Positions 20,983 through 29,096 of a stretch of 64,000 nt of DNA are shown piece by piece. A program made the translations under genes and the position numbers. Position 1 is the first letter of the stretch. Every line of letters begins with the position of its first letter. The notes beneath the pieces are model-generated. The model saw nothing but the letters and a program-made list of their open reading frames with translations, was not told the origin of the DNA and searched no databases. Origin of the DNA: Pseudomonas sp. ADAK18 (lineage in GTDB: Bacteria > Pseudomonadota > Gammaproteobacteria > Pseudomonadales > Pseudomonadaceae); contig NZ_CP052859.1 in assembly GCF_012935695.1 (NCBI RefSeq), forward strand, positions 1,901,001 to 1,965,000, given 5' to 3'.

Positions 20983-22839
20983 TCAGATCACCAGAATTGC
21001 ACGACCACCGGGGTTGCAGGACAGGTTGGCACCGATTTCGACTTTTGCCAGGTCGATGCCCAGGCCGGCGAGGAGGTTGTTGACGAGGGGGTCAAGGAGC
21101 GGACTAAGGAGGCCGGAAATGACCCCGCTAAGGAGATTGAGTACGCTGGTCAGCACGTTGACTACAAGGCTAAGTACCAAGCCTAAAAGTCCTCCGAGCG
21201 TCGGTGTATGGCTGATCAGTTTGATGCCGTTAAGGGTGTTGCTCAGGCTACCTACTACGTTATTGGAACTGAAACCGTAATAGTCCGCAGGCTGCTTTAC
21301 TTCGGGAGGCGCCAGGAATACATGCTCCTTGACAGTTTCGGCCACGGTGCTATCAATCATCAGGCCCAAGCCGCCAACGGCATAGGCTTCCCTCGATGCG
21401 CAGACACCTTGACTGCAGATTTTCCTCCCTAGGTCCAGCAACGGAAACTCATCGACTTTCAATTGTTCGACAGAGGAAAACAGGTTTTTCGGATCGATCT
21501 GACCGACCATGAGCCGTACCGCCGACGTTGTGCCGACCACTGAAAGTTGTTTGTCCTTGGGACCGTTGCAGCGGTAGCCAGAGACGTAGCTGCTGCCGCT
21601 GGCGGCTTCCAGTGCAACATCTATTTTCGGGCCTATTTTTGGGTCGAGAGACCCGCCCAGCAAGCCACCGACCAAATCCATGACCCAGCCGATGACGTCG
21701 TTAAGTGTACTGATTACCGGCAGATCCACAGAGATCAATGTCCTGACCTGGGCGGTCCTGACAAAGATGGGCTGCGTGTCGATCAGCTTTGGGTTGCCGA
21801 TGGCTGATATCTGAGCGGGTTCAATGACTTTAGTCTTGACCGTAATGCCCAGTAATCCCAGTACATTGACCGGTAACTCGACTGCTACCGCGCTTTTCTT
21901 GTTGGACAGTTGCACAAAGCCCTGGATCAGATTGAACAGCTGTAGGTTGACGTCGAGGGCGCTCTTGTCCGTACCGTTCTGAATTTTCACCAGGTCCCCA
22001 AGGTGCAGAATCTCGGTGCCCGGTGCGATGAGCTTGATTGCTTCCAGATTATTGATCACCACCTTGACCGCGTCACTACCCAGTTTGAGTACATCAATCG
22101 CTGCTTGGATCAGTTGGCCAACGGTCGCGTCGGTCTTGAGCAGTTGCTCGTAGTTGCCGGCGCTGACATTCAGTCGAATGGCTAAGGCATCGAGATAGGT
22201 GAGCAGGTTGATGTCGGTTTTGAGCAAGCCTTGCCAGCCCGCGGCTTCAATTTGCAACTTGCCCCCCAGCAATCCGCCGATCAAAGCGTTCAACGCTGCG
22301 GACTTGGTGCTGTCTACGGTCAACAAGGTGCTGCGAACTGTGAGCGTTGCTACCGGAGGAGAGGGCACAGCGGCCACGGCAATTGCAGTCAGTTGCGTCG
22401 TAAGATCAGCGTTGCCTGTGGAGAACAGGGCACGGATACCACCGGCAATACTGGTAGTGACGCGATGCTTGGCGATGACTTGAATGGCATCGGCCTTGAG
22501 CGGATCGGCATTGAAGGTACGCAGGAAGTTGGCGCCCGTGACCAGCGTGCCGCAGGACGTGGCTAAAGTACGGTTGTCATCGAGGGTAAAGTTATTGCGC
22601 GCGGCACTTTCCTGTGCAAACACCGCCGCGTTATTGGCCGGTACGGCGCAGGTGCCGCCACGGCTCACAGCTTCCAGCGCTGCGGTGTCGACAACCCGCT
22701 GCAACTTGCGTTTTTCCAGGTACAAACGACCGCTATCGACCACCAACAGCAGCAGCAACAGCGCGAGTCCGAGGGTTAGCGCGCCCATCAGCCCGATCAC
22801 GCCGCGTTGGCGGGCCGGGCCGGATCCATGGCGAAACAT
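20983..22839 (-). CDS. TadG-like pilus-assembly-related membrane protein (orphan)
   Basis: A 618-residue protein. The N-terminus (RQRGVIGLMGALTLG followed by a long hydrophobic stretch, VDSGRLYLEKRKLQRVVDTA) is the TadG/TadE type: a single membrane anchor followed by the Tad signature for pseudopilin-like processing or anchoring. The rest is a large periplasmic part rich in Leu, Val and Gly with repeated GLLGG / LLSGVISGLLSPLLDPL segments near the C-terminus and a few Cys. I chose the ATG at 22839 over one 16 codons upstream. No tad, rcp or flp genes are nearby, so it is an orphan relative. Confidence 0.8.
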   Translation of the reverse strand: MFRHGSGPARQRGVIGLMGALTLGLALLLLLLVVDSGRLYLEKRKLQRVVDTAALEAVSRGGTCAVPANNAAVFAQESAARNNFTLDDNRTLATSCGTLVTGANFLRTFNADPLKADAIQVIAKHRVTTSIAGGIRALFSTGNADLTTQLTAIAVAAVPSPPVATLTVRSTLLTVDSTKSAALNALIGGLLGGKLQIEAAGWQGLLKTDINLLTYLDALAIRLNVSAGNYEQLLKTDATVGQLIQAAIDVLKLGSDAVKVVINNLEAIKLIAPGTEILHLGDLVKIQNGTDKSALDVNLQLFNLIQGFVQLSNKKSAVAVELPVNVLGLLGITVKTKVIEPAQISAIGNPKLIDTQPIFVRTAQVRTLISVDLPVISTLNDVIGWVMDLVGGLLGGSLDPKIGPKIDVALEAASGSSYVSGYRCNGPKDKQLSVVGTTSAVRLMVGQIDPKNLFSSVEQLKVDEFPLLDLGRKICSQGVCASREAYAVGGLGLMIDSTVAETVKEHVFLAPPEVKQPADYYGFSSNNVVGSLSNTLNGIKLISHTPTLGGLLGLVLSLVVNVLTSVLNLLSGVISGLLSPLLDPLVNNLLAGLGIDLAKVEIGANLSCNPGGRAILVI

Positions 22840-22959
22840 ACGGCGTCCTTCGCCAGTCCTGCACCGGCGTCCTGAGGGTCCCCGCAAGCATTGTAGTCAG
22901 GATCTGGAAAATTGCTGGCTATAAGCCATTATTTGTGGCGCTTGCAGTGTCCGACTGTT

Positions 22960-23910
22960 TCAGTTCGGGAGTGGCAGTGCTACCGGCGTCAATACGGGGC
23001 GGCCCGCGAAGTATTCCATCAGGTTATCCGCTACCCGCTGCACCGTGTCATGGGCCGCTTCCGGCGACAAACCAGCGACATGGGGCGTCAGCACGGTATT
23101 GCTCAGGTGCTTGAGGGCATCCGGCACCTGGGGCTCATCATCGAACACATCCAGCGCTGCGCCGCCGATGCGCCGTTGCTCCAGAGCGCTGATCAAGTCG
23201 GCGGTGACAATCACACTGCCCCGGGCGATGTTCACCAGAAAGCCGTGGGGGCCCAATGCGTCCAGGGCTTGGCGGTCGATCAAGTGTCGGGTAGTGGCGC
23301 CGCCGGGGGTGGCCAGGATCAGGAAGTCCGAGGCCCGCGCCAGCTCCAGCGGAGTCGAGCAGTAGGTGTAGTCCACATCGTCCCGGGGTTGGCGGCTGTG
23401 GTAGCTGACTTCCATGCCGAAACCCAGCGCTGCACGCTTGGCAATCTCCATGCCCACCGCGCCTAGTCCCAGAATGCCCAGCTGTTTGCCCGACAGGGAA
23501 GGGCGCATGACCTTGGGCCATTCGCTGCGCCGCACTGCTGCGTCCGCCCGGGGAATGTCCCGCACCAGCGACAACAACAACGCCATGGCGTGATCGGCCA
23601 CCGACGGTGCATTCACTCCGGCGCCATTGGTCACCACGATCCCACGGTTACTGGCGGCCTGCAGGTCTACATGTTCGTAGCCGGCACCAATCACACAGAT
23701 GATTTTCAGCAACGGCAGGGCAGCGATTTCCTCGGCATATAGACCCAGCGGTCCCCGGGTCAGCACCGCCTGGATTTGCCCGCCATGGGCCTTGATCGCC
23801 TCGGCGCGTTCGGCTGGCGTGGGTGCCAGGATCACATGAAAGCCATTGCCTTCGATGAGCGGCAGGTAGTCGTTGATGGTTTCAACCAGGACCAGAACAG
23901 TGATGGGCAT
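22960..23910 (-). CDS. D-2-hydroxyacid dehydrogenase (NAD(P)-dependent)
   Basis: A 316-residue enzyme reducing 2-oxo acids to D-2-hydroxy acids, or the reverse. The Rossmann motif GILGLGAVGMEIAKRA is present, and the catalytic triad is in NIARGSVI (Arg), DVFDDEP (Glu) and LTPHVAG (His). The start MPITVLVLVE is chosen over one 15 codons upstream. It is the next minus-strand gene after the isochorismatase-like hydrolase (132 bases apart), so it may share the attenuated transcript. Substrate is unknown; glyoxylate or hydroxypyruvate are common in this family. Confidence 0.9.
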   Translation of the reverse strand: MPITVLVLVETINDYLPLIEGNGFHVILAPTPAERAEAIKAHGGQIQAVLTRGPLGLYAEEIAALPLLKIICVIGAGYEHVDLQAASNRGIVVTNGAGVNAPSVADHAMALLLSLVRDIPRADAAVRRSEWPKVMRPSLSGKQLGILGLGAVGMEIAKRAALGFGMEVSYHSRQPRDDVDYTYCSTPLELARASDFLILATPGGATTRHLIDRQALDALGPHGFLVNIARGSVIVTADLISALEQRRIGGAALDVFDDEPQVPDALKHLSNTVLTPHVAGLSPEAAHDTVQRVADNLMEYFAGRPVLTPVALPLPN

Positions 23911-24042
23911 GCGAAGGCTCTTCCTGAAGGCTTTGATGGCGCCAGTATGCGACATTTCTTTGGCCTGAATCCTGTGTCTGCTGAAGAAAGATCTGATGCG
24001 CGCAGGGTAAATATCTCCCTGCGTGCATCCATGATGTGGATG

Positions 24043-24579
24043 TCAGGCCCAGACATCTGCCGCCTTGACGCGTTTCACAAATGCTCCGGACAGGGTTGCA
24101 TTGTGATGCTCGATAATCGTTTCGGCCGATAACACCGGGGTGTCCATGCACGTGTGGCCGTCTTCCGGCAGCACTACCGAAAAGCCCAGTTCTACCGCCA
24201 CCCGACAAGTCGTGTCGATGCAGTACTGGGTCTTCATTCCGACAAGCACCAGCTCATCGAGCTGCGCTGCCGCCAGTTGCTGGGCCAAATGAGTGCCCAG
24301 AAAGCAACTGGGGTGGGTTTTGTTGAAGACCGTGTCCTGAGCTTCATCAATGTCCAGTGCTGGCCATAGCTGCCAGAGCGGACTGCCGGCTTCGATGGGA
24401 GAGCCGGTCGGGCCTGTATGACGGGCAGCGTAGACCGGGACACCTGCTCGCCGGGCGCGATGAATCAACTGGTTGATCGTGTCGAGTACACGCTCACGTT
24501 CGAACGGCTTTTGCGGCCCATCGTACAGGCCAGCTTGCATATCAATAATCAACAGGGCGGGGCGTTTGGCGTCATGCAT
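24043..24579 (-). CDS. Isochorismatase-like cysteine hydrolase
   Basis: A 178-residue hydrolase of the isochorismatase/nicotinamidase fold with a complete catalytic triad: Asp13 (LLIIDMQ), Lys87 (FNKTHPSCF) and Cys120 (GMKTQYCIDTT). Members cleave amide or related bonds in small molecules such as nicotinamide, N-carbamoyl compounds or isochorismate; the substrate here is not evident. Its 5' region carries a threonine-rich leader peptide and a transcription terminator, which suggests expression depends on charged threonine tRNA. The GGAG site is seven bases before the ATG and is covered by a hairpin. Confidence 0.9.
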   Translation of the reverse strand: MHDAKRPALLIIDMQAGLYDGPQKPFERERVLDTINQLIHRARRAGVPVYAARHTGPTGSPIEAGSPLWQLWPALDIDEAQDTVFNKTHPSCFLGTHLAQQLAAAQLDELVLVGMKTQYCIDTTCRVAVELGFSVVLPEDGHTCMDTPVLSAETIIEHHNATLSGAFVKRVKAADVWA

Positions 24580-24582
24580 GAG

Positions 24583-24617
24583 GTTGCTCCATCGTGTTGC
24601 CAGGTGGACAGAGCAAC
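24583..24617 (-). promoter_or_regulatory. Hairpin covering the hydrolase ribosome binding site
   Basis: In the transcript GUUGCUC (24617-24611) pairs with GAGCAAC (24589-24583), and the GGAG ribosome site (24590-24587) lies at this 3' arm. An alternative stem UGUUGC/GCAACA uses the same 5' arm and would free the site. Confidence 0.5.
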
Positions 24618-24649
24618 AAAAAGGCCCCGTCCATTGCTGGTGGGGCCTT
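24618..24649 (-). terminator. Attenuator terminator upstream of the hydrolase gene
   Basis: AAGGCCCC and GGGGCCTT form a perfect 8-base-pair stem with loop ACCAGCAATGGAC, followed by a run of T residues. It lies after the threonine-rich leader peptide and 38 bases before the hydrolase start, so it must be read through for expression. Confidence 0.85.
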
Positions 24650-24670
24650 GGGTGTTATGGGTGACTTGGT

Positions 24671-24760
24671 TTAGCTCAAGCGCCACTCACAACCACCACG
24701 CGACCCGCCAGAAGCGGTCGTGGTAGTGGTACGGGTGAGGGCTAGCTGAAGAATGGTCAT
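24671..24760 (-). CDS. Threonine-rich leader peptide (29 residues)
   Basis: A 29-codon frame encoding MTILQLALTRTTTTT followed by ASGGSRGGCEWRLS. It holds seven Thr codons, five of them consecutive (ACC ACT ACC ACG ACC). It has no recognisable ribosome binding site, but a good promoter would place the start of transcription on or next to its ATG, so it may be translated from a leaderless mRNA. The Thr codons lie in the 5' arm of a hairpin whose 3' arm (GCGUGGUGG) can instead pair with CCACCAGC in the terminator's 5' arm and loop. This is the layout of classical amino-acid attenuators. It is too short for homology evidence. Confidence 0.75.
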   Translation of the reverse strand: MTILQLALTRTTTTTASGGSRGGCEWRLS

Positions 24761-24796
24761 GGGCCGATCATGCTTGGCCTGGCTCGGCGCTGTCAA
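24761..24796 (-). promoter_or_regulatory. Promoter of the leader peptide transcript
   Basis: On the minus strand a perfect TTGACA (24791-24796) and CATGAT (24767-24772) are 18 bases apart. Six bases follow the -10 before the leader ATG, so transcription is predicted to start at about 24760. Confidence 0.7.
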
Positions 24797-24971
24797 CGTG
24801 CCAGCCACCTTTGGATACCTGCACCGCACAACCATTCCTCAGCTAAGTCTTTGCTTATTCAGGCGAATCCCGGACAATCGCGCCCCTGTTACGGTGAGGG
24901 CGCTGTCTATCGGACTTTTCCGACCCGCCCCCACTGTGTGGCAATGAACCGGAATGCGGAGATCCGACCGG

Positions 24972-26249
24972 ATGAATGATCAGGCCAATAGCGTCGACGA
25001 ACGCTACGCAACGACACCTGCAACCCTCACAAGCTGGAGCCGCCAGGACACCACCTGGATGCTTGGCCTGTTCGGCACGGCCATCGGCGCCGGCACCTTG
25101 TTTCTGCCCATCAACGCCGGCCTGGGTGGCTTCTGGCCGCTGTTGGTGCTGGCGGTCCTGGCCTTCCCGATGACGTTCTATGCGCACCGTGGCCTGACCC
25201 GCTTCGTGCTCTCGGGCCGTGAAGGTTCGGACATCACCGAAGTGGTCGAGGAGCATTTCGGGATCAAGGCCGGTGCGCTGATCACTTTGCTGTACTTCTT
25301 CGCGATCTTCCCGATCCTGCTGATCTACAGCGTCGCCCTGACCAACACCGTCGGCAGCTTCCTCGAACACCAACTGCACATCACGCCGCCGCCACGGGCG
25401 ATCCTGTCGTTTGTGCTGATCCTCGGCCTGCTGGCCGTGGTGCGCTGTGGCGAGCAGGTGATCGTCAAGGCCATGAGCCTGATGGTGTATCCGTTTATCG
25501 TCGCCTTGCTGTTCCTAGCGGTGTTCCTGGTGCCGCACTGGAACGGCGGCATCCTCAGCACTGCCAGTACCTTGCCAGCGCCTTCGGCCCTGCTGCACAC
25601 CTTGTGGCTGGCGATTCCGGTGATGGTGTTCTCGTTCAACCATTCGCCGATCATCTCGGCGTTTGCCGTTGACCAGAAGCGCCGTTATGGCGAACACGCT
25701 GAAGAGCGCAGTTCGCAGATCCTGTCCCGCGCCCACTTGCTGATGGTGGCGATGGTGCTGTTCTTCGTCTTCAGTTGCGTCCTGACCTTGTCGCCAGCGC
25801 AATTGGCGGAAGCCAAGGCGCAGAACCTGTCGATCCTGTCCTACCTGGCCAACCACTTCAGCAACCCGACCATCGCTTTTGCCGCACCGTTGATCGCGTT
25901 CGTGGCCATTGCCAAGTCGTTCCTGGGCCACTACATCGGCGCCAGCGAAGGTCTCAAGGGATTGATCGTCAAAAGCGGTCGCCGTCCTGGACCTAAGGCT
26001 CTGGACCGTATGACGGCGGCCTTCATGCTGGTGGTGTGCTGGATCGTTGCCACACTCAACCCAAGCATCCTGGGGATGATCGAGACCCTGGGCGGGCCGA
26101 TCATCGCGTCGATCCTGTTCCTGATGCCGATGTATGCCATTCGCAAGGTGCCGGCCATGGCCAAGTACCGTGGGCAGGCGTCCAATGTGTTTGTGACAGC
26201 AGTGGGATTGGTGGCGATTACGGCATTGGTGTATTCGTTTGTAGCGTAA
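24972..26249 (+). CDS. Serine/threonine transporter, HAAAP family (SdaC-like)
   Basis: A 425-residue inner-membrane carrier with 11 predicted helices, of the SdaC/TdcC/HAAAP type. The N-terminal signature WMLGLFGTAIGAGTLFLPI and the conserved SFNHSPIISAFA segment are intact. SdaC-type carriers take up serine (TdcC: threonine and serine) with protons. The ATG at 24972 follows GGAG at suitable spacing; an ATG six codons upstream is less likely. It diverges from the threonine-attenuated leader, which fits a link of both units to threonine or serine. Confidence 0.9.
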   Translation: MNDQANSVDERYATTPATLTSWSRQDTTWMLGLFGTAIGAGTLFLPINAGLGGFWPLLVLAVLAFPMTFYAHRGLTRFVLSGREGSDITEVVEEHFGIKAGALITLLYFFAIFPILLIYSVALTNTVGSFLEHQLHITPPPRAILSFVLILGLLAVVRCGEQVIVKAMSLMVYPFIVALLFLAVFLVPHWNGGILSTASTLPAPSALLHTLWLAIPVMVFSFNHSPIISAFAVDQKRRYGEHAEERSSQILSRAHLLMVAMVLFFVFSCVLTLSPAQLAEAKAQNLSILSYLANHFSNPTIAFAAPLIAFVAIAKSFLGHYIGASEGLKGLIVKSGRRPGPKALDRMTAAFMLVVCWIVATLNPSILGMIETLGGPIIASILFLMPMYAIRKVPAMAKYRGQASNVFVTAVGLVAITALVYSFVA

Positions 26250-26273
26250 AGCTTCCTGGGTTCAGGAACTGAT

Positions 26274-26307
26274 AAAGGCCGATCCGCGTTGCGGGTCGGC
26301 CTTTTTT
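26274..26307 (+). terminator. Rho-independent terminator of the SdaC-like gene
   Basis: AAAGGCCGATCCGC pairs with GCGGGTCGGCCTTT (one G-T pair) around a GTT loop, followed by a T run. It lies 25 bases after the stop. Confidence 0.93.
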
Positions 26308-26336
26308 ATATCTGCAAGATGAGTGTCGTCTGGTCC

Positions 26337-26415
26337 GGCCTCATCGCGGGCAAGCCCGGCTCCCACAATTGGAGTGCGTCCCCCTGTGGGAGCCGGGCTT
26401 GCCCGCGATGGGGCC
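26337..26415. repeat. REP pair, family B (GGCCCCATCGCGGGCAAGCCCGGCTCCCAC)
   Basis: Facing units GCGGGCAAGCCCGGCTCCCA and its reverse complement with a spacer of about 20 bases, between the two terminators of convergent genes. Confidence 0.92.
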
Positions 26416-26444
26416 GGAACAGGCAGCCACTTTCTTCCAGGCAT

Positions 26445-26478
26445 AAAAAACGCCGCGTACCTTGCGATACGCGGCGCC
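26445..26478 (-). terminator. Rho-independent terminator of acnB
   Basis: On the minus strand GCGCCGCGTATC and GGTACGCGGCG form a strong stem with a short loop (GCAA) and are followed by TTTTTT. It lies 18 bases after the acnB stop. Confidence 0.92.
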
Positions 26479-26495
26479 TTCTACATCAACAAACC

Positions 26496-29096
26496 TTAGG
26501 CTTGAATCACCGGAATGTTGGCGTTTGCAGCGGCTTCACGGAACTCGGCGATCTGGTCAAAACTCAGGTAGCGATACACATCGCTGGCCATGGTGTTGAT
26601 TTCCTTCGCGTAGGCCATGTACTCCTCGACGGTCGGCAGGCGACCCAGGATGGACGCAACCGACGCCAGCTCGGCCGAAGCCAGGTAGACGTTCGCGCCA
26701 TCACCCAGACGGTTCGGGAAGTTACGGGTCGACGTCGAGACCACGGTGGAGTTCGGTTCAACGCGCGCCTGGTTACCCATGCACAGCGAGCAGCCCGGCA
26801 TTTCCATGCGCGCGCCAGCCTTGCCGTAGATGCCGTAGTAGCCTTCTTCGGTCAGTTGGTGAGCGTCCATCTTGGTCGGCGGCGACAGCCACAGACGGGT
26901 TGGCAGCTGACCCTTGACCTGTTCCAGCAGTTTACCGGCAGCACGGAAGTGACCGATGTTGGTCATGCACGAACCGATGAACACTTCGTCGATTTTCTCG
27001 CCTTGTACCGAAGACAGCAGACGGGCGTCGTCCGGATCGTTTGGCGCGCAGAGCACAGGCTCCTTGATGTCGGCCAGGTCGATCTCGATGATTTCGGCGT
27101 ATTCGGCGTCGGCATCGGCCACCATCAGCTCAGGGTTGGCAACCCAGGCTTCCATCGCTTGGGCGCGACGTTCCAGGGTGCGTGCATCGCCGTAGCCTTC
27201 GCCGATCATCCAGCGCAGCAGGGTGATGTTGGAGTTCAGGTACTCGGTGATCGACTCTTTCGACAGCTTGATGGTGCAACCGGCAGCCGAACGTTCAGCC
27301 GAGGCGTCGGACAGCTCGAAAGCCTGTTCGATGCTCAGGTTGTCCAGGCCTTCGATTTCCAGGATGCGGCCGGAGAAGGCGTTCTTCTTGCCTTTCTTCT
27401 CTACGGTCAGCAGGCCAGCCTGGATCGCGTAGTAAGGAATGGCATGAACCAGGTCACGCAGGGTGATGCCCGGTTGCATTTCGCCTTTGAAGCGCACCAG
27501 GATCGATTCCGGCATGTCCAGTGGCATAACGCCAGTGGCGGCGGCAAACGCTACCAGGCCGGAACCGGCCGGGAACGAGATGCCCATCGGGAAACGAGTG
27601 TGGGAGTCACCACCGGTACCAACGGTGTCCGGCAGCAGCATGCGGTTCAGCCAGCTGTGGATGATGCCGTCGCCCGGACGCAGCGATACGCCGCCACGGG
27701 TCATGATGAAGTCAGGCAGGGTGTGGTGGGTGGTCACGTCGATCGGCTTTGGATAGGCCGCGGTGTGGCAGAACGACTGCATTACCAGATCGGTGGAGAA
27801 GCCCAGGCACGCCAGGTCTTTGAGTTCATCACGGGTCATTGGACCGGTGGTGTCCTGGGAGCCGACGGTGGTCATTTTCGGTTCGCAGTAGGTGCCTGGA
27901 CGAACACCCGCCACGCCGCATGCCTTGCCGACCATTTTCTGCGCCAGGGTGTAGCCCTTGTCGCTTTCAGCCGGAGCTTCCGGCAGCTTGAACAGGGTCG
28001 AAGGCGGCAGACCCAGCTCAATGCGAGCCTTCTCGGTCAGGCCACGGCCGATGATCAGAGGGATACGGCCGCCAGCACGGACTTCGTCCAACAGCACCGG
28101 AGTCTTCATTTCGAAGGTGGTCAGGACTTCATCGCTGTTGTGCTTGGTGACTTTGCCAGCATGCGGGTACAGGTCGATCACGTCGCCCATGTTCATGTTG
28201 GTGACGTCGAATTCGATTGGCAGTGCGCCGGCATCTTCCATGGTGTTGTAGAAGATGGGAGCGATCTTGCTGCCGAAGCAGAAGCCGCCAGCACGCTTGT
28301 TCGGTACATAAGGAACGTCGTCGCCGAAGAACCACAGTACCGAGTTGGTAGCCGATTTACGCGACGAACCCGTACCGACCACGTCACCGACGTAGGCGAT
28401 CGGGAAGCCTTGACCGCGCATTTCTTCGATCTGTTTCATCGGACCGGTGACGCCTTGGACGTCAGGCACGATGCCTTCACGGGCCATTTTCAGCATGGCC
28501 AGGGCGTGCAGCGGGATGTCAGGACGTGACCAGGCATCCGGGGCAGGGGACAGGTCGTCGGTATTGGTTTCGCCGGTGACCTTGAACACGCGCAGGCTGA
28601 TCTTGTCGGCCAGGGTCGGGCGGTTCTTGAACCACTCGCCGTCAGCCCAGGACTGGATCACGTCTTTGGCATGCTGGTTGCCGTTCTTGGCTTTTTCCGC
28701 GACGTCGTGGAATGCATCAAACATCAACAGGGTGTGCTTGAGTTGCTTGGCTGCCACAGGTGCCAGGGTCGCGTCGTCCAGCAGATCGACCAGGGTCACG
28801 ATGTTGTAGCCGCCTTGCATGGTGCCAAGCAGTTCAACCGCGCGTTGTTTGTCGATCAGGGGGGAAGTGGCTTCGCCCTTGGCCAGGGCAGACAGGAAAC
28901 CGGCCTTGACGTAGGCAGCCTCGTCAACGCCTGGTGGAATGCGGTTGGTGATCAGGTCAACGAGGAAAGCTTCTTCGCCAGCCGGGGGATTTTTCAGCAG
29001 CTCGACCAGGCCTGCAGTTTGTTCGGCGTTAAGCGGCTGGGGAACGATACCCAGGGCTGCACGCTCTTCGATATGTTTGCGGTAGGCTTCAAGCAC
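26496..29096 (-). CDS. acnB: Aconitate hydratase B
   Basis: The 866-residue bifunctional aconitase B of the TCA cycle (citrate to isocitrate), which also acts as 2-methylisocitrate dehydratase in the 2-methylcitrate pathway. The length matches E. coli AcnB (865). The iron-sulfur ligands are seen in [13 protein letters not shown] and GCSLCMGNQ (about residues 769 and 772). I chose a GTG start, giving an N-terminus (M)[15 protein letters not shown] that matches AcnB; GAGGGTAA lies just upstream. An ATG nine codons upstream is less likely. A 41-base hairpin lies about 160 bases upstream in the probable 5' leader. Confidence 0.96.

Follow-up and report, generated by a model that had tools for sequence, protein, structure and literature searches.

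A probable threonine-codon attenuator ahead of an isochorismatase-like hydrolase gene in Pseudomonas, and its sister versions

Why would a run of threonine codons stand before a gene that does not make threonine? The question is raised by a locus in Pseudomonas sp. ADAK18 (contig NZ_CP052859.1, positions 1,901,001 to 1,965,000). This stretch of 64,000 nucleotides (nt) is called the window below, and its own coordinates are used throughout. Here a short leader peptide with five consecutive threonine (Thr) codons precedes the gene of an isochorismatase-like cysteine hydrolase. The most probable answer, with a probability of roughly 0.85, is ribosome-mediated transcription attenuation, with a Thr-codon leader peptide whose own translation is leaderless.

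The leader and its three stems

The switch consists of a promoter, a leader peptide and a set of alternative hairpins, followed by the target gene. Its parts and one neighbour are as follows.

24767..24796, minus strand: sigma-70-type promoter, TTGACA at 24796-24791 and CATGAT at 24772-24767, with an 18-nt spacer
24671..24760, minus strand: leader peptide open reading frame (ORF) of 29 codons, MTILQLALTRTTTTTASGGSRGGCEWRLS; its ATG lies 6 nt past the -10 box, has no Shine-Dalgarno sequence and is probably leaderless
24716..24730, minus strand: segment 1, five Thr codons in tandem (ACC ACT ACC ACG ACC), from the reading frame
24704..24709, minus strand: segment 2, GGCGGG, the 3' part of the codon hairpin and the 5' arm of the antiterminator, from folds and alignments
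about 24697-24684, minus strand: inner antiterminator arm, 3' of GGCGGG, from folds
about 24618..24649, minus strand: segments 3 and 4, intrinsic terminator AAGGCCCCACCAGCAATGGACGGGGCC plus U5, from folds and conservation
24587..24617, minus strand: predicted Shine-Dalgarno hairpin, in which GUUGCUCUGUCC (the anti-Shine-Dalgarno, segment 5) pairs with GGAG (segment 6, 24590-24587)
24043..24579, minus strand: target gene, an isochorismatase-like cysteine hydrolase of 178 amino acids with its ATG at 24579 (PF00857, E 4e-34)
24954..26249, plus strand: divergent serine/threonine transporter of the stp family (TIGR00814, above cut-off), a neighbour outside the switch

A first-pass annotation, made from the letters of the window, had described the promoter, the 29-codon ORF with its five Thr codons, the codon hairpin and the terminator, and all of these were located. 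The leader region folds better than all of 200 dinucleotide shuffles (z -3.27). The annotation's claim of an intrinsic terminator is upheld by the hairpin and U-run at about 24649-24618, which are conserved among the hydrolase leaders. This terminator is unlisted in a terminator scan, which was limited to loops of 3-8 nt, and is shown by folding and conservation.

The antiterminator had to be redrawn. The pairing first proposed, GCGUGGUGG with CCACCAGC, is replaced by a conserved pairing of GGCGGG with CCCGCC, extended by a variable inner stem. In the computed structure there are three mutually exclusive stems. Stem 1:2 joins the Thr codons to GCGGGUCG, stem 2:3 is the antiterminator, and stem 3:4 is the terminator. 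The hairpin predicted to hold the codons thus has the antiterminator arm on its 3' side, and the antiterminator is predicted to exclude the terminator.

From this arrangement we infer a response to threonine-loaded tRNA (Thr-tRNA). When Thr-tRNA is sufficient, the ribosome would pass the Thr codons, run to the stop codon and cover GGCGGG. The CCCCGCC..GGACGGGG terminator would then form, and transcription would end about 140 nt from its start. Without translation, the codon hairpin would sequester GGCGGG, with termination as the outcome again. When Thr-tRNA is scarce, the ribosome would stall on the Thr codons and block the codon hairpin. GGCGGG and the bases after it could then pair with the CCCGCC arm to form the antiterminator, and the hydrolase gene would be transcribed. 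By this logic the hydrolase is probably made only under a shortage of threonine-loaded tRNA. As a regulatory logic this appears well supported by comparison; the switch would work like thr/ilv attenuation and would not be a threonine-biosynthesis leader.

The start of the leader peptide follows a regular pattern. Across 82 distinct upstream regions, the leader ATG follows the best-scoring -10 box at a distance of 5-9 nt in 80, among them 55 with exactly 6 nt, and a motif like a Shine-Dalgarno sequence precedes the ATG in three. Because the ATG follows the -10 box by about 6 nt and lacks a Shine-Dalgarno sequence, this promoter spacing suggests that translation is probably leaderless; the transcript would begin at or beside the AUG.

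Conservation of the Thr run and of the terminator across species had been put forward as a check on the attenuator, and both proved to be conserved. Hydrolase homologs were taken from Pseudomonas genomes and from named genome contigs, giving 57 records with 52 distinct upstream regions. A leader is present in 50 of the 52, the window included; it has the Thr run, GGCGGG in exact or slightly altered form, and the AAGGCCCCGCCAGCAATGGACGGGGCC terminator, which hardly varies. The other two (L025, L057) have no such leader upstream of the hydrolase. A wider set consists of 77 hydrolase matches at E<=1e-40 in 199 Pseudomonas genomes, with 48-100% identity. The leader lies immediately 5' of the gene in 75 of them. 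In 62 cases this was seen from a covariance model match listed just upstream: one (G182) came from model R2, built on all leader classes, and the rest were among the listed matches of model R1, built on Thr leaders, which reach down to about E 1e-12. Fetching the upstream regions of the remaining 15 added another 13.

In 89 leaders chosen for containing TT, 341 of the 356 cells that make up the last four positions of the run are Thr, and the Thr codons vary synonymously. GGCGGG is invariant or nearly so in alignments A1 and A3, and the U-run is retained in the Pseudomonas hydrolase leaders. A degenerate pattern of the scaffold has 46 matches in 38 of 149 Pseudomonas genomes and its reversed control has none; each of 30 matches fetched is a Thr or methionine (Met) leader. 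Decayed copies also occur (L209, L210, L231). In one of them, L210:1501-1658, a hydrolase leader has apparently lost its Thr codons by deletion, as judged against L207, and has kept the terminator and the gene.

The stems can be followed across sequence change. In stem 2:3 the inner part varies in sequence and the pairing persists: the fold beats the mean of inner-shuffled versions in 77 of 79 scored leaders, in 59 of them at z<-1, with a mean z of -1.73 (two of the 81 leaders did not fit the search expression). When leaders of all classes are aligned in 45 rows, pairing holds in 89.6% of cells, and none of 500 shuffles reaches the covariation score. An example is codon-hairpin pair 44-63, which is C-G in 29 rows and U-A in 11. 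Terminator pair 122-151 is likewise G-C in 20 rows and A-U in 8.

Sister versions and spread

The scaffold is also found with other codons and before other genes. Model R1 was searched in 398 Pseudomonas genomes. It matched in 256 of them at E up to 0.01, in many cases weakly, and 40 further places were fetched and read. In 19 of these the leader is Met-rich, for instance MTYTRHMNMMCTSMTASGGP. Eighteen of the 19 are followed by an ORF like GNAT acetyltransferases (truncated in L135); in L134 the script found no such ORF. At 15 places a Thr leader precedes a hydrolase ORF, mostly of a second subclass (the ORF is partial in L142). At two places, L121 and L145, there is a Thr leader, and the script found no hydrolase.

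One place, L131:1450-1588, has nine consecutive Thr codons in its leader, followed by a protein of the major facilitator superfamily (MFS; PF07690). The nearest models of this protein are those of the efflux pumps MdtH and YdeE, with scores far under their cut-offs. This version was found in one of 199 genomes at E<=1e-60 (G079), in two identical copies, the second at G079:C104; the hydrolase of the same genome has no leader. Three more places (L124, L151, L152) have the Thr scaffold and terminator with no gene of at least 100 amino acids behind them on the same strand. A decayed start codon or Thr run in them suggests that they are relics. Two of the three adjoin a gene whose product, judged by eye, resembles Lrp/AsnC.

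Met-codon leaders on the same scaffold stand before GNAT acetyltransferase genes at L138:1477-1609, L161, L186 and other loci. The acetyltransferase of L138 belongs to PF00583. Its best solved relative is the GCN5-type acetyltransferase 2fiw (E 5e-10), and it has a marginal match to a tabtoxin resistance protein (E 0.008). A search for relatives of the acetyltransferase gave 63 matches in 58 of 199 genomes. Thirty loci among the most similar were fetched, and 14 of them have a Met leader, more distant Met-leader genes lying outside the 30; the leader is therefore not tied to all relatives of the acetyltransferase. Most of the Thr and Met leaders that were read share the peptide end TA.GG[SP]. 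The presence of Met codons on the same scaffold, ahead of another kind of gene, is an argument for the codons as its variable sensing part.

Model R2 places the family in three further genera of the same bacterial family, with strong matches in G680, G707, G752, G760, G768 and G787. Among 50 places read, no codon type besides Thr and Met was seen. Seventeen of the 50, at no more than 41 bits, were set aside as chance matches to the ends of other genes and their terminators, except L231, which resembles a decayed Thr leader. Weak matches of a search across the class (22 of 274 genomes at E up to 0.01, own genome included) were likewise read in L089 and L090 and proved to be the ends of other genes with terminators. 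Rfam gave no leader family in window positions 23000-26500 at E up to 1, and on L117, L131 and L138 only C4 and isrK matches, elsewhere in L131. Sub-threshold matches to microRNA models on both strands at window positions 26330-26422 suggest an inverted repeat.

The leader has also spread beyond Pseudomonas chromosomes. In a plasmid collection, 68 records match the hydrolase at E<=1e-20, and 18 of them were read. Among homologs with at least 50% identity, 11 of 12 have a Thr-rich leader ORF immediately upstream, mostly in Enterobacterales and Burkholderiales: Paraburkholderia, Burkholderia cenocepacia, six Pantoea, Duffyella, Rahnella and Pseudomonas silvicola. No Thr-rich leader precedes the twelfth, from Aeromonas, or any of the six homologs read with less than 45% identity. 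Model R2 supports eight of the 11 plasmid leaders at E<1e-5 and three weakly, at 0.011-0.017 (L301, L307, L315).

What the switch may answer

A second gate is possible at the Shine-Dalgarno sequence of the hydrolase gene. The freed 3' arm of the terminator would compete for the hairpin that holds this sequence. In 107 Pseudomonas and related regions, the predicted hairpin has a mean z of -1.28, and the median pairing of the four Shine-Dalgarno letters is 0.75 (above 0.8 in 28 of 107). The 3' arm of the terminator pairs better with the anti-Shine-Dalgarno than with shuffled sequence, with 80 of 107 at z<-1. When folds are made conditional on one stem, the median accessibility of the Shine-Dalgarno sequence is 0.45 with the antiterminator formed versus 0.01 with the terminator formed; it rises by more than 0.3 in 50 of 117 leaders and falls by as much in one.

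Several observations weigh against the attenuator as described, or against parts of it. Unconstrained folds of the stalled state do not free the Shine-Dalgarno sequence (mean 0.29 versus 0.27 in the shuffled control; a rise above 0.3 in 14 of 117, a fall in three). Two of the 77 hydrolases (G079, G015) have no leader. The covariation is uneven: two of five measures do not exceed the shuffles (pairs with double change, 128 of 500; further pair types, 480 of 500), and shuffling of pairs does not exclude shared ancestry. Pair 46-61 is unformed in 24 of the 45 rows, and pairs 42-65 and 43-64 in 10 each. On the 50 hydrolase leaders by themselves, the RNAalifold covariation energy is almost nil (-0.11), because these leaders are very alike. 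In the window itself, the outer part of the antiterminator has a C.A mismatch and the terminator an A.C mismatch, both because of an A at 24641. This A is rare (two of 50 rows, the window and L010 only), and because of it the scaffold pattern misses the window's own genome. Finally, the 3:4 hairpin has no U-tract in the Pantoea, Duffyella, Rahnella, P. silvicola and Burkholderia cenocepacia versions, so the switch there cannot be an ordinary terminator.

In these versions, a stretch complementary to the Shine-Dalgarno sequence stands right behind the 3:4 hairpin. The plasmid-borne L300-L305, L307, L308 and L315 have the Thr codons and hairpins without the U-tract, and a shift from transcriptional to translational control is possible. 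One could go further and regard the whole family as mainly a translational switch, in which regulation acts on the Shine-Dalgarno hairpin and the terminator is a mere addition in Pseudomonas. The hairpin statistics, the conditional folds and the versions without U-tract agree with this, but it is improbable as a general account: the U-run is kept in Pseudomonas, the unconstrained folds show no difference, and only one of seven plasmid-borne sequences from Paraburkholderia, Burkholderia, Pantoea and P. silvicola (L300) opens in the conditional folds. A chance Thr-rich ORF beside an unrelated terminator has a negligible probability, being already refuted by the conservation before the hydrolases (50 of 52 upstream regions, 75 of 77 genes) and by the scaffold pattern (46 matches versus none).

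What, then, would transcription attenuation by Thr codons control? By its domain and triad residues the target belongs to the PF00857 isochorismatase-like cysteine hydrolases, and this match bears out the annotation's view of it as a cysteine hydrolase and not a threonine biosynthesis gene. D13, K87 and C120 are invariant in 32 aligned homologs; we take them to be the Asp-Lys-Cys triad of the family. The Pfam domain and these residues are held in common with the YecD and YcaC families, and the target differs in that it scores under the equivalog cut-off of each of the four NCBIfam models it matches. Its best match in the Protein Data Bank (PDB; E 9e-23) carries the family name only. N-carbamoylsarcosine amidohydrolases are among the more distant matches (E 1.6e-9), and such distance allows no substrate to be inferred. 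The gene is rare across the class, with two of 312 genomes at E<=1e-30, own genome included.

The divergent serine/threonine carrier had been taken as a further link with threonine. It is a genuine transporter of its family, but it does not serve as functional evidence. It is present at 24 of 26 named loci, at a varying distance from the leader. The stretches fetched for the other hydrolase subclass and for the acetyltransferase, which reach about 1.5 kb upstream, do not show it. It looks like neighbourhood synteny of one hydrolase subclass. On the other side of the hydrolase, window positions 20983-22887 encode a protein with a TadE/G-like N-terminus (PF13400), which adjoins a 2-hydroxyacid dehydrogenase gene syntenic with the hydrolase. 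The first-pass reading is thus partly supported: the thr/ilv-type logic, the Thr run, the terminator and the hydrolase target hold, and the exact antiterminator pairing and the carrier as evidence do not. New in comparison are the probable leaderless start, the Met/acetyltransferase and MFS versions, the Shine-Dalgarno hairpin and the spread beyond Pseudomonas.

A hydrolase, an acetyltransferase and an MFS protein are of kinds able to remove or modify small molecules, and none is a known enzyme of Thr or Met biosynthesis. A working idea follows from this: the switches would respond to compounds that deprive the ribosome of one aminoacyl-tRNA. The hydrolase more likely removes a compound than makes threonine, and detoxification of something that blocks the supply of Thr or Met to the ribosome is the most economical reading, though an unproven one. 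In its specific form, the idea is tentative. Exchangeable codon sensors would report the inhibition of one aminoacyl-tRNA supply line and switch on the matching protective gene, the Thr codons an amide hydrolase (once an MFS exporter) and the Met codons an N-acetyltransferase. The inducers, destroyed by the enzymes, might be inhibitors of threonyl-tRNA synthetase, such as obafluorin or borrelidin, or antimetabolites of the Thr or Met pathway. Such antimetabolites exist; rhizocticin and plumbemycin, for instance, inhibit threonine synthase. Streptothricin hydrolase is an isochorismatase-like resistance enzyme. According to an excerpt of one report, obafluorin is produced by Pseudomonas fluorescens (PMC10619133).

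Two other accounts of the inducing condition must be set beside detoxification. The hydrolase might act on an amide or N-carbamoyl compound to free threonine or one of its precursors, and the leader would then be an ordinary amino-acid-supply attenuator. The N-carbamoylsarcosine amidohydrolases among the PDB matches fit this proposal, but they are distant and give no substrate; moreover, the Met-codon sister controls an N-acetyltransferase, which would not supply methionine, and one Thr version controls an MFS protein nearest to efflux models, though far under their cut-offs. Metabolic supply is therefore unlikely, if worth keeping in mind. Less probable still is that the leader senses a ribosome-targeting antibiotic, or holds a nascent-peptide arrest motif (TA-GG[SP]), as in resistance upstream ORFs, instead of sensing tRNA charging. 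Attenuators of this kind with antibiotic-sensing upstream ORFs are described (excerpts of PMC4191407, PMC10314930 and PMC12121999), the targets look like genes that modify or move small molecules, and the peptide end is common to most leaders read. However, one family has Thr runs and the other Met-rich ones, the Thr codons vary synonymously, and the common TA-GGCGGG is accounted for by RNA pairing.

The codon run would show which amino acid is in short supply when the hydrolase is called for, and so offers a handle on the substrate of this enzyme family. If detoxification is true, amino-acid attenuators, the textbook devices of biosynthesis, also give warning of antibiotics, and the codons repeated in a leader point to the tRNA synthetase or pathway that is hit by an unknown natural product. 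Two codon types on one scaffold show how evolution re-aims such sensors.

Comparison with known attenuators

No described attenuator for such a hydrolase gene was found among the matches listed from an open-access library; most subscription papers lie outside that scope, so this is no proof of absence. The main text of PMC2965389 and of PMC8297930, as far as it was available, mentions neither isochorismatase nor acetyltransferase.

The closest likeness is to the enterobacterial thr operon leader, which also has a Thr-codon leader peptide, a codon hairpin, an antiterminator and an intrinsic terminator. It controls thrABC, whereas here the target is a cysteine hydrolase, the leader has no Shine-Dalgarno sequence, and there is no Rfam match up to E 1. 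The thrL peptide, which has the Rfam family Thr_leader, contains isoleucine codons besides Thr; the hydrolase leader has Thr without isoleucine codons.

A second relative is trpL of Sinorhizobium meliloti, whose RNA, in the part of the report available, begins with the ATG of the leader ORF and which uses attenuation at a codon run (PMC7298713). It differs in having Trp codons and trpE(G) as its target. The leaders of bmrCD of Bacillus subtilis and of msrD, as described in excerpts of PMC4191407 and PMC10314930, likewise combine a leader peptide with attenuation before a protective gene. These answer ribosome-targeting drugs, whereas the leaders described here carry the codons of one amino acid.
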